DNA from: Candidatus Saccharimonadota bacterium
GTDB taxonomy: Bacteria; Patescibacteriota; Saccharimonadia; Saccharimonadales; UBA4665
Assembly: GCA_029288485.1 (NCBI GenBank)
Contig: JARIHC010000008.1
Coordinates: 1-63,793 of the forward strand
DNA: 63,793 bases
Direction: 5' to 3'
Shown piece after piece: positions 3,737 through 7,441 of this stretch. Numbering within the stretch: position 1 is the first letter of the stretch; every line of letters begins with the position of its first letter. The notes beneath the pieces were generated by a model, which searched no databases, was not told the origin of the DNA, and worked only from the letters and a program-made list of their open reading frames with translations. Made by a program: the position numbers and the translations under genes.

Positions 3737-3765
3737 TTGACTTGTTGGTAAATCAAAACTATTAT
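3737..3765 (+). promoter_or_regulatory. Promoter TTGACT-N17-TATTAT
   Basis: TTGACT (3737-3742), a 17-nt spacer and TATTAT (3760-3765). Transcription should start about 3 nt before the ATG at 3775. Confidence 0.55.
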
Positions 3766-3774
3766 TCAAATATT

Positions 3775-4494
3775 ATGGAGATTATAGGAAACGACGAGCT
3801 GGACGTTCCAGAAGACCCTGACCACGATCAATATATTGCTGCGATCAAAGAGTTTGATGCGTGCCAGGACAGGTTTTTTGACACGACCACAAATTGGACT
3901 GCCAAGCCATTTGATACCAAGCACACATCTCAATTTAACAATAGCACTGCGGCATTAGCTAACGCGCTTACTAACGTCGCCGAGGTAATAGTTCATGATA
4001 GTCAGCTAACGCCAGATGAGAAGGGCCACACCCTTGCAGCAATACTTCTAAAGGCCGACTCCGACCGGTCAGAATTTCTTTCGGAGCTGGCTCCGACGGC
4101 CAACATAATAAAGCCACGCTACTCACAGAGTGGGTTAGCGGCAGAAATAGCTGAAGAACTAGAGGCTGCAACTGCTGGGCTAGAACTAGAAGATTTGGAT
4201 GCTGATGGAACAGTTGAAATAGAAGGCGAAATACCGGAAGACATCGAAGACTTAGAAGAGAGCGAGGAGCTAACAGAAATTGTTACGAGGTTAGCCACTT
4301 CGTACGCTCTGAACTTCAATACCGACATTACGATGTTTACCCAGACAGTTAAAGCTGAAAACAGCGACAGCAATTTTCGTAAACAATTACTTAAAAATAT
4401 TGGCGGAAGAATACTAAAAGCCGGTGAAATTTCTATAGCTGTAGCAGTGGGTGTCATTACAGCCCACCAGCTTGCTAAAAAGTCTTCTGATTAA
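3775..4494 (+). CDS. Hypothetical acidic protein with C-terminal hydrophobic segment, 239 aa
   Basis: Not recognised. The N-terminal part is polar and helical. The middle (about residues 130-175) is very acidic, a run of Glu/Asp/Leu such as LELEDLDADGTVEIEGEIPEDIEDLEE. The C-terminal end has a hydrophobic stretch (ISIAVAVGVITAHQLA) that could be a tail anchor or an amphipathic helix. I place the start at ATG 3775 because the promoter TTGACT-N17-TATTAT lies across the upstream in-frame codons. The gene converges with glyA, with 7 bp between the stop codons. Confidence 0.55.
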   Translation: MEIIGNDELDVPEDPDHDQYIAAIKEFDACQDRFFDTTTNWTAKPFDTKHTSQFNNSTAALANALTNVAEVIVHDSQLTPDEKGHTLAAILLKADSDRSEFLSELAPTANIIKPRYSQSGLAAEIAEELEAATAGLELEDLDADGTVEIEGEIPEDIEDLEESEELTEIVTRLATSYALNFNTDITMFTQTVKAENSDSNFRKQLLKNIGGRILKAGEISIAVAVGVITAHQLAKKSSD

Positions 4495-4501
4495 CATTCC
4501 G

Positions 4502-5779
4502 TCACTTATCGCTTGGCAACGGGAACTGGAGCGCAAACTGTTTTACTTCCTTACTTAACTTGTTAAGTATTTTCTCGTCTGCTCTATTATCTATTGCTTG
4601 CTTCATCCATTCGGCTACTGTTTCCATGTCAGCTTCACCAAGCCCACGGGTTGTTATGGCCGGTGTGCCTAGGCGAACGCCACTGGGACGGAATGGCGGC
4701 AATGGGTCATCGGCGATAGCATTCTTGTTCAGGGTCAGGTTTATTTTGTCCAGCGTTTCTTCTACGACGCTGCCATCAAGTCCAAAGCTACCATGGACAT
4801 CGGCCAAAATTAAATGGTTGCTGGTACCGCCGGTAACAAGTTTGAAATCGCGTTTTTGCAAGGCGTCGGCCAGTGCTTTAGCGTTTCTAACGACCTGTTC
4901 AGCGTAAGTTTTAAACCCAGGCTTAAGCGCCTCGCCAAGCGCAACTGCTTTTGCCGCTATGATATGTTCATGCGGTCCGCCTTGCATACCCGGGAACACG
5001 GCCCGATCAATCAAAGTTGGTAGGTTTTCTAGAGTTTTTTCAGGTGCTTTGAGCGGGTTACCGGCAACACCCCTGGTTAGAATGAGGCCGCCTCGCGGTC
5101 CGCGCAGTGTTTTATGCGTAGTAGTTGTAATGACATGGAATCCGTCATCAAACGGGTTTCTAGATATCCCGGCAGCTATAAGGCCGGCTATGTGAGCCAT
5201 ATCTGCCATTAAAAGCGCCCCGACCTCGTTGCCAGCTTCGGCGAATTTAGCGTAGTCAAGTTCGCGCGGGTAGCCGCTAAAACCGGCCAGAATGATTTTA
5301 GGTTTGTGCTGGCGAGCCAATTTACGCAGTTCTTCGTAATCAATTTCACCAGTCGCAGGGTCCTTCATTTTATAGCGAATAAAGTTGTACAGTTTAGCCG
5401 AACGAGTTACTGGCGCTCCATGCGTAAGGTGGCCGCCGTGGCCCAAGTCCATAGCCAGCACTGTGTCGCCTGGCTCCAGCCAAGCCGAGTAAACTGCTTC
5501 ATTAGCAGGCGCTCCACTGTGTGGCTGGACATTAGCATGATCGGCTTTAAATAGTTTTTTAGCACGATCAATAGCTAATTGCTCAACTTGATCGGTATTT
5601 TGCTGTCCCCCGTAATAACGTTTGCCGGGATAGCCTTCAGAGTATTTGTTAGTAAAAACGCTTCCCATAGCGTCCAATACATCGCGGCTTACGTAGTTCT
5701 CAGATGGAATTAACTCAAGCCCTTCGCGCTGCCGTTGTTCTTCAGCGGCAATAAGCTGAGCTACTGTCTTATCAATCAT
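4502..5779 (-). CDS. glyA: Serine hydroxymethyltransferase
   Basis: SHMT interconverts serine and glycine with tetrahydrofolate and 5,10-methylene-THF, supplying one-carbon units in the cytoplasm. The 425-residue protein is full length. Visible signatures are LIPSENYVS at the N-terminus, YPGKRYYGGQQNTD (about residues 50-63), the PLP region VITTTTHKTLRGPRGG with Lys223 as Schiff-base lysine, and GVRLGTPAITTRG near the C-terminus. The ATG has a good Shine-Dalgarno site (AGAGGGG, 6 nt spacing) and a TATACT box further upstream, so this mRNA has a true leader. It is divergent from the XRE-MurA gene. Confidence 0.97.
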   Translation of the reverse strand: MIDKTVAQLIAAEEQRQREGLELIPSENYVSRDVLDAMGSVFTNKYSEGYPGKRYYGGQQNTDQVEQLAIDRAKKLFKADHANVQPHSGAPANEAVYSAWLEPGDTVLAMDLGHGGHLTHGAPVTRSAKLYNFIRYKMKDPATGEIDYEELRKLARQHKPKIILAGFSGYPRELDYAKFAEAGNEVGALLMADMAHIAGLIAAGISRNPFDDGFHVITTTTHKTLRGPRGGLILTRGVAGNPLKAPEKTLENLPTLIDRAVFPGMQGGPHEHIIAAKAVALGEALKPGFKTYAEQVVRNAKALADALQKRDFKLVTGGTSNHLILADVHGSFGLDGSVVEETLDKINLTLNKNAIADDPLPPFRPSGVRLGTPAITTRGLGEADMETVAEWMKQAIDNRADEKILNKLSKEVKQFALQFPLPSDK

Positions 5780-5810: not shown

Positions 5811-5889
5811 TGTTAATGCCGAGGAGAATACTATGTCATAAAATTTATTATAGCAGGCTCACAAGATTAGGAATCTGCTTGCATAAAAA

Positions 5890-5905
5890 ATATCATATAT
5901 GATAT
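5890..5905. promoter_or_regulatory. Perfect 16-bp palindrome, candidate operator of the XRE-MurA gene
   Basis: ATATCATATATGATAT is its own reverse complement. It overlaps the likely -10 element TATGCT (5903-5908) of the downstream gene, whose product carries an XRE-type HTH. Autoregulation is inference. Confidence 0.5.
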
Positions 5906-5917
5906 GCTCTTTGCACG

Positions 5918-7441
5918 ATGGCGACATCTAATGAAAAGATAGGTCAGTTAATTACTCATTTGCGACAAGAAAGAGGCCTCACACAGGCTGAATTCGCGCG
6001 CCGCTTAAACACATCTCAGTCCGCTGTTAACCGTATGGAGCACGGACGTCAAAATCTGAGCTTAGAAACCTTAGGGCGCATTAGCGACGTGCTTAACAAA
6101 CAGATTATTAGTCTAAATGAGGGCGCCGTCAACTTGCATATTGAAGGAGGCCACGAACTGCGTGGCGAGATCACACTGAAAACAAGCAAAAACGCAACCG
6201 TTGCCCTACTCTGCGCCAGTTTGCTGAACAGAGGCACCACTAGGCTGAAGAATGTGGCGAAGATCGAAGAAGTCAATCGGTTAATTGAAGTGCTGGGCAG
6301 TATTGGCGTTAATATCAAATGGATTGGGGAAAACGACCTGGAACTCAGACCTCCAGAAAAGCTAGATCTCACCAACATGAATAAGTCAGCAGCTCGTAAA
6401 ACCCGAAGCGTGATAATGTTTATCGGGCCGCTTTTGCATCATTTCAAGGAATTTAGCATCCCCTATGCTGGCGGCTGTGAGTTAGGCCGACGAACTGTAC
6501 TGCCACATCTTTACGCTTTGGAGGAATTTGGCGCCGAGATAGAAACAAAATCAGGTCATTACGAGGTTATCTCTAAGCCGCATAAGCCATCACGCAGCGT
6601 AGTCTTGTACGAGTCTGGCGACACCACTACGGAAAACGCTTTAATGGCAGCTGCGCTAGCTCCCGGAGAGACCGTTATTAAAATGGCGAGCGCCAATTAT
6701 ATGGTGCAAGACTTATGCTTTTTCTTGCAACACCTTGGTGTCCAAATCGATGGTATCGGCAGCAGCACGCTGCGTGTTCACGGCGTAAAAAGCATTCGTA
6801 AAAACGTCTCTTATGCGCCGGCAGAGGATCCGGTAGAGGCCATGACTTTTGTCGCCGCCGCCATAGCTACAGACTCCTCAATAACTATCAAGCGCGTACC
6901 TATCGAATTCTTAGAACTAGAACTACTCAAACTAGAAAAGATGGGTCTGAAATATGAAAGTAGTAAAATTTATAAAGCAGATAACGGCAAAACAGATCTG
7001 GTAGACCTTAAAATCTATAAACACCACAGTAAATTAAAAGCGCCTATAGATAAGATTCATCCTAATATATTTCCCGGGCTTAACATCGACCATTTGCCAT
7101 ATTTTGTACCAATCGCAGCAGTCGCTCAAGGCCGGACCATGATCCATGACTGGGTTTATGAAGACCGAGCGCTCATGTATACCGAGATGAAAAAGATTGG
7201 CGTTAACTTGGAGTTAGCTGATCCTCACCGTGTCTTTGTAACTGGCCCAACGCGTTTTAAAGCCGCGGATCTAGTCGCCCCAAGCGGCATTCGTCCAGCC
7301 GTTATTCTCCTTATTGGTATGCTGGCAGCCCCCGGCAACTCTGTACTGCGTAATGTTTATACTATTAATCGCGGCTATGAAAGTCTGGCCAATCGATTAA
7401 ATAGTCTCGGCGCCAAAATTACCGTACTTCACGAAATATAA
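5918..7441 (+). CDS. XRE HTH-MurA fusion: UDP-GlcNAc 1-carboxyvinyltransferase
   Basis: 507 residues. Residues about 8-65 are a clear Cro/C1-type HTH (LITHLRQERGLTQAEFARRL, then TSQSAVNRMEHGRQNLSLETL). From about residue 70 an EPSP-synthase/MurA fold begins. Catalytic features of MurA are present: SKNA at about 90-93 (substrate lysine), Cys187 in AGGCELGRR (the phosphoenolpyruvate and fosfomycin cysteine) and NRGYESL near the C-terminus. MurA transfers enolpyruvate to UDP-GlcNAc, the first committed step of peptidoglycan synthesis. Ordinary MurA is about 420 residues without a DNA-binding domain. The fusion could couple wall precursor synthesis to transcription (inference). Confidence 0.85.
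   Translation: MATSNEKIGQLITHLRQERGLTQAEFARRLNTSQSAVNRMEHGRQNLSLETLGRISDVLNKQIISLNEGAVNLHIEGGHELRGEITLKTSKNATVALLCASLLNRGTTRLKNVAKIEEVNRLIEVLGSIGVNIKWIGENDLELRPPEKLDLTNMNKSAARKTRSVIMFIGPLLHHFKEFSIPYAGGCELGRRTVLPHLYALEEFGAEIETKSGHYEVISKPHKPSRSVVLYESGDTTTENALMAAALAPGETVIKMASANYMVQDLCFFLQHLGVQIDGIGSSTLRVHGVKSIRKNVSYAPAEDPVEAMTFVAAAIATDSSITIKRVPIEFLELELLKLEKMGLKYESSKIYKADNGKTDLVDLKIYKHHSKLKAPIDKIHPNIFPGLNIDHLPYFVPIAAVAQGRTMIHDWVYEDRALMYTEMKKIGVNLELADPHRVFVTGPTRFKAADLVAPSGIRPAVILLIGMLAAPGNSVLRNVYTINRGYESLANRLNSLGAKITVLHEI

Follow-up and report, generated by a model that had tools for sequence, protein, structure and literature searches.

Fosfomycin acts on MurA, the enzyme of the first step in peptidoglycan synthesis. 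In a Candidatus Saccharimonadota bacterium, the murA gene lies within a 63,793-nucleotide stretch of contig JARIHC010000008.1 (the window) and encodes a MurA joined at its N terminus to an XRE helix–turn–helix (HTH) domain, raising the question of what a wall enzyme does with a DNA-binding domain. The initial annotation had proposed that the enzyme acts as its own repressor. Comparison of orthologues supports a DNA-binding autoregulator well, and the repressing action is deduced from the overlap between its putative operator and the −10 element. Judged from these sequences, it is highly probable that the protein, here HTH-MurA, has two functions, as MurA and as repressor of its own promoter.

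The domain content of HTH-MurA follows the first description closely. Residues 15–62 match the Pfam family HTH_3 (E 6.9e-14; 52.1 bits vs a cut-off of 23) and the AlphaFold model (whole-protein pLDDT 89) places helices at residues 4–18, 23–29, 34–41 and 49–59, bearing out the clear Cro/C1-type HTH recognized at the N terminus. Residues 76–493 match EPSP_synthase (PF00275; E 1.7e-43; 149 bits vs a cut-off of 22.8), the protein scores above the cut-off of the NCBIfam MurA subfamily PRK09369 (330 vs 297 bits) and under that of the stricter equivalog TIGR01072 (311 vs 392.7 bits), and Foldseek matches classical MurA structures over the catalytic part. The catalytic Cys187 and SKN lysine previously picked out in the MurA part proved invariant: C187, K91 (the SKN lysine), N92, R163, R192, H197, D391, R417, R459 and R485 are all unchanged across 38 orthologues, the E. 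coli MurA counterparts of all but H197 presumably being, in the same order, Cys115, Lys22, Asn23, Arg91, Arg120, Asp305, Arg331, Arg371 and Arg397. Linker residues 64–68 fall below pLDDT 50 in the model, and the Cys187 loop (186–190) is of low confidence too. The nearest named relatives are Candidatus Saccharibacteria. An EPSP_synthase search of the whole 912,562-base genome (97.5% complete) returned this gene as its single match; HTH-MurA is therefore the cell's MurA, with no spare, and we could discard the idea of a second MurA with a divergent job.

Table 1 Features of the HTH-murA locus (window coordinates)
Feature	Position	Strand	Remarks
glyA (serine hydroxymethyltransferase), divergent from HTH-murA across a common intergenic region	4502..5779	-	Pfam SHMT 1.3e-157
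Possible -35 element TTGCAT, 18-bp spacer to -10	5879..5884	+	Read from sequence; weak, missed by consensus scan
Putative operator, perfect 16-bp palindrome ATATCATATATGATAT	5890..5905	.	Unique in window; same start-codon distance in fused orthologues
Likely -10 element TATGCT	5903..5908	+	Overlaps right arm of operator; position TATAAT-like in relatives
HTH-MurA fusion gene	5918..7441	+	507 aa; Pfam, NCBIfam; sole MurA of genome
XRE/Cro-C1 helix-turn-helix domain, residues 8-62	5939..6103	+	Pfam HTH_3, AlphaFold helices
Recognition helix TSQSAVNRME	~residues 32-41		Within best conserved stretch, residues 31-46
Linker, residues 63-71	6104..6130	+	Variable, low model confidence
MurA domain, residues 72-503	6131..7426	+	Catalytic residues all present; Cys187 = 6476-6478

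The palindrome ATATCATATATGATAT upstream of HTH-murA is exactly self-complementary, as originally reported, and occurs once in the window at up to two mismatches (0.01 expected); the whole genome contains its 14-bp core TATCATNNATGATA exactly once, within this same palindrome. Its last 3 bp overlap TATGCT, so the claimed overlap with a −10 element holds, and relatives are TATAAT-like at this position, but a sigma-70 consensus scan calls no promoter at the −35/−10 of the window's HTH-murA. Counting against an operator, AT-rich promoters easily yield palindromes, and part of a −10 lies within the right arm. A chance palindrome was ruled out, since the element recurs in orthologues and is unique in the genome. 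The gene on the other side of the intergenic region, glyA, is divergent from HTH-murA in 91/104 saccharibacterial loci, and the common promoter region could couple the two genes. A 250-aa open reading frame between murB and glyA (3742–4494) has no Pfam match.

When 380 genomes were drawn evenly from the phylum, about 52 of them matched HTH-MurA nearly full length with the HTH included, comprising the sampled members of the window's order and scattered other CPR families; about 20 further close homologues in the same draw (44–58% identical) match only from residue ~49–74 on and are without the HTH. A denser draw of the order, Saccharimonadales, contains the protein in 376/393 genomes, and among the roughly 150 best matches listed all start within query residues 1–6, bar one contig-edge fragment. 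In this sampling the fusion is near-universal across Saccharimonadales, and the MurA tree indicates loss of the HTH in several CPR lineages. CPR family f20 (L051, L053 and L054) presents an apparent decay series running from a degenerate HTH to none, with the operator absent in all. Where the HTH is kept, its DNA-contacting face is conserved in the family, a point on which the initial annotation had made its reading depend: Q34, S35, A36, R39, Q45 and N46, the DNA-contact positions of the recognition helix, are at least 90% conserved in alignments A1 and A2. The recognition helix and turn (residues 31–46, TSQSAxxRxE) form the best-conserved stretch of the HTH, with a mean pairwise identity of 0.69 and 0.79 in two alignments. 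Residues 8–30 reach 0.48 and 0.58 in the same alignments, the MurA domain 0.59 and 0.62, and the linker 0.29 and 0.35.

The palindrome recurs with the fusion. Most fused genes, some of them from other CPR classes, have a palindrome of consensus TATATCATATATGATATA centred ~17–21 bp before the ATG. Between −46 and −12, TATCATNNATGATA is found at up to two mismatches in 67/125 fused CPR genes (2.5% of dinucleotide shuffles) and at up to three in 100/125 (14.6% of shuffles). Upstream regions of non-fused close homologues yielded the operator in 0/18 cases, and none was found upstream of the decayed-HTH proteins L051 and L053. Across the tree sample the operator accompanies 41/57 genes with an intact HTH and 0/20 with an absent or decayed one; a good site is wanting in 16 of the 57 HTH-bearing rows, and the independent pairs in this sample (n = 4) nearly always agree in direction (4/4, p 0.125). 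Across classes, and even across phyla, the operator tracks the HTH, and it is missing from genes whose HTH has disappeared or decayed. Variants occur: the murA genes of two large genera, g8 and g16, have the right half-site TGATATA only, certain fused genes have the site in two copies or farther upstream, and several genomes contain 2–5 palindrome sites. Some g8 genomes (L145–L156) also carry this palindrome, flanked on one side or both by TATAAT, close to the starts of unrelated, often divergent genes. Covariation of the arms within CPR did not reach significance.

The promoter context is equally regular among relatives. The −10 position, under the right arm, is TATAAT-like (at least 4 of 6 bases) in 67/68 anchored sites, and the left arm, which lies outside the −10, is well conserved (A97 at −8, A91 at −6 and C100 at −4). 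In anchored relatives the ATG follows 6–12 nt after the −10, mostly 6–9, so murA transcripts probably have little or no leader. A putative operator placed over the −10 in this way is in the classic position of a repressor site.

Nor is the fusion a CPR-only oddity. An alignment-based scan of GTDB species genomes detected proteins 58–60% identical over nearly the full length, HTH included, in Streptomyces, Nocardioides, Janibacter, Brachybacterium, Piscicoccus and Intrasporangium. Their distribution in Actinomycetota is patchy, as about 6 of 149 genomes in an even draw carry the fusion. A classical MurA accompanies it in Streptomyces, Brachybacterium and Intrasporangium; in Nocardioides, Janibacter and Piscicoccus the fused MurA stands alone. 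Its sole-copy status in the window's genome, in Nocardioides and in Janibacter is an indirect sign that the fused protein works as an enzyme. Against TIGR01072 the actinobacterial copies score only ~300–317 (cut-off 392.7). One of them, L280 (genome G891), consists of two overlapping matches (query residues 9–390 and 379–512), apparently in different frames, and is apparently a pseudogene or a sequencing error. Upstream of the actinobacterial genes, at the same start-codon distance as the saccharibacterial site, lies the operator TATCTCATATNTGAGATA, which differs from its saccharibacterial counterpart by a symmetric change of one base per arm. TCTCATNNATGAGA is present at up to two mismatches in 32/34 actinobacterial fused genes (0.3% of shuffles); together with the 67/125 CPR genes at the same threshold, this gives the orthologous fusions the upstream palindrome that the initial annotation had anticipated. 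The arms covary between the phyla at pair 6, from A/T to C/G (0/1000 shuffles). None of 12 actinobacterial genomes of 2.5–9.9 Mb has more than one exact copy of the 14-mer TCTCATATNTGAGA; the 5 genomes that contain it (3.4–9.9 Mb) always have it just upstream of HTH-murA, and its reversed control has 0 occurrences in the same 12.

How the gene and its site came to be in two phyla was addressed with a tree built on the MurA domain alone, leaving out the HTH. The actinobacterial fusions form one clade nested among Saccharimonadales, and a topology that keeps Saccharimonadales together without the actinobacterial copies is rejected (AU p 5.8e-5). A topology that holds family f2, the nearest saccharibacterial family, together and separate from the actinobacterial fusions is not rejected (AU p 0.71), and the donor may therefore have been sister to f2 instead of a member of it. 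The simplest reading of these sequences is one transfer from a saccharibacterial lineage to Actinobacteria in which gene and operator would have moved together; the quick tree method and differences in composition call for caution, and the direction depends on the classical MurA outgroup. That the operator crossed phyla with the gene is the best argument that it belongs to HTH-MurA and to no other saccharibacterial regulator, because saccharibacterial trans-factors should be absent in another phylum. Saccharibacteria live on Actinobacteria, and the nested clade suggests that an essential, self-regulated wall gene went from an episymbiont lineage to the phylum of its hosts.

The initial annotation had also linked murB to the proposal because an XRE gene stands beside it. 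That neighbour is real: a gene for an XRE-DUF3467 protein (2106–2723 in the window) is divergent from murB in 20/20 loci of relatives, with a gap of 56–144 bp. The link to the MurA operator does not extend with it, as control searches found that operator at 1/30 murB promoters of relatives and not at the other 29, and a common operator was ruled out as the rule. In most relatives the gap instead has in common a motif resembling TGCAAGCGTAAGCG, located upstream of the −10 of murB and unlike the murA operator. Given this different motif and the 29/30 murB promoters lacking the operator, the XRE gene by murB looks like a separate regulator, and XRE-DUF3467 is probably a second wall-gene regulator. 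The exception is genome G168, in which the MurA palindrome TATATCATATATGGTATA lies directly upstream of murB (L157:1277–1294); here murB is a possible lineage-specific second target of HTH-MurA.

These comparisons make it very likely that HTH-MurA itself binds the palindrome. In the mechanism that we propose, the XRE domain at the N terminus, probably dimeric, would bind the palindrome over its own −10 and, once bound, would block murA transcription, so that the amount of free enzyme would set its own synthesis. We infer dimerization, and repression rather than activation, the latter from the site over the −10 element. A competing account holds that the palindrome is another regulator's site or merely a symmetric promoter element, with an HTH that serves protein contacts or is vestigial. 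The palindromes near unrelated genes in some g8 genomes, flanked by TATAAT on one or both sides, and the half-sites left at g8 and g16 murA speak for this account, but the site follows the HTH (41/57 vs 0/20), crossed phyla with it and is genome-unique in Actinobacteria, and the recognition helix is the best-conserved part of the domain (0.69–0.79 vs 0.48–0.58 for residues 8–30), all of which makes it very improbable. Control of a small wall regulon beyond the gene itself, taking in murB and others, would fit the palindrome upstream of murB in G168 and the genomes with 2–5 sites; with 29/30 murB promoters lacking the operator, and one exact site or none in the window's genome and the actinobacterial genomes, we regard it as unlikely.

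Our estimates for these readings concern how the autorepressor is controlled, given that HTH-MurA is one. Plain dose feedback, in which repression is proportional to the amount of protein whatever the state of the active site and the fusion keeps regulator and enzyme equimolar, has in our judgement about an even chance of being correct. It agrees with an operator that is mostly single and at its own gene and with the flexible linker, and suffices for everything observed, but it leaves unexplained why a fusion persists rather than a separate regulator, and the loss of the HTH in several CPR lineages also weighs against it. MurA closes on UDP-GlcNAc, and control by UDP-GlcNAc or PEP would make HTH-MurA a true trigger enzyme, a metabolically gated autorepressor whose open and ligand-bound closed forms differ in DNA binding, so that scarcity or surplus of either metabolite would act directly on murA transcription. 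The HTH does stay fused to the catalytic domain throughout Saccharimonadales and in Actinobacteria, and the low model confidence of the Cys187 loop and linker may mark mobile parts; the linker, however, is short, variable and predicted to be flexible, and nothing points to a rigid route of coupling; we consider gating possible but somewhat doubtful. The data fit dose feedback and ligand gating alike. Only tentatively do we suggest a MurA autorepressor gated by substrate (UDP-GlcNAc, PEP or fosfomycin state) as a self-contained cassette that may have passed once from Saccharibacteria to Actinobacteria and replaced the native MurA in Nocardioides and Janibacter.

The fusion has a likely representative in a well-known organism. 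The XRE domain is present in the Streptomyces orthologue L244, whose gene is divergent from aconitase. This arrangement agrees with S. coelicolor, in which SCO5998 (MurA2), the second of its two MurAs, adjoins aconitase SCO5999 (PMC12161575). From the L244 domain and this neighbourhood, MurA2 probably belongs to the HTH-MurA family. Passages of PMC12161575 and PMC8346170 present it just as a second MurA that depends on SigB (PMC8346170) or is a predicted DmdR1 target, and make no mention of an HTH or operator. An HTH-MurA autorepressor offers a function for Streptomyces MurA2, and because cultured Streptomyces and Nocardioides share the design with uncultured Saccharibacteria, it can be put to the test straight away. 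The literature searched, with subscription journals mostly outside it, contained no description of a MurA autorepressor, a MurA with an HTH or a MurA trigger enzyme, and direct transcriptional self-control by MurA appears undescribed there; new, too, is the fusion in Streptomyces, Nocardioides, Janibacter and others, apparently acquired from Saccharibacteria.

HTH-MurA has the fold of classical MurA (for example PDB 5u4h, 5ujs and 1uae) and its active-site residues, among them the Cys targeted by fosfomycin, but differs in its extra N-terminal XRE domain and belongs to a divergent clade, ~25–35% identical to classical MurA and under the TIGR01072 cut-off. With XRE/HipB/434-type repressors it shares an HTH with a Q-S-A recognition helix and a short AT-rich palindromic operator over the −10; where those have a toxin partner or an oligomerization domain, the effector part of HTH-MurA is an essential wall enzyme. 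PutA, BirA and NadR are trigger enzymes or bifunctional enzyme–repressors acting on proline, biotin and NAD genes. By analogy, HTH-MurA would likewise combine enzyme and DNA-binding domain in one chain with an operator at its own promoter, its putative target being its own wall gene rather than those of proline, biotin or NAD metabolism. HTH-MurA would join a known kind, the enzyme-linked autorepressors, here with MurA as the enzyme.
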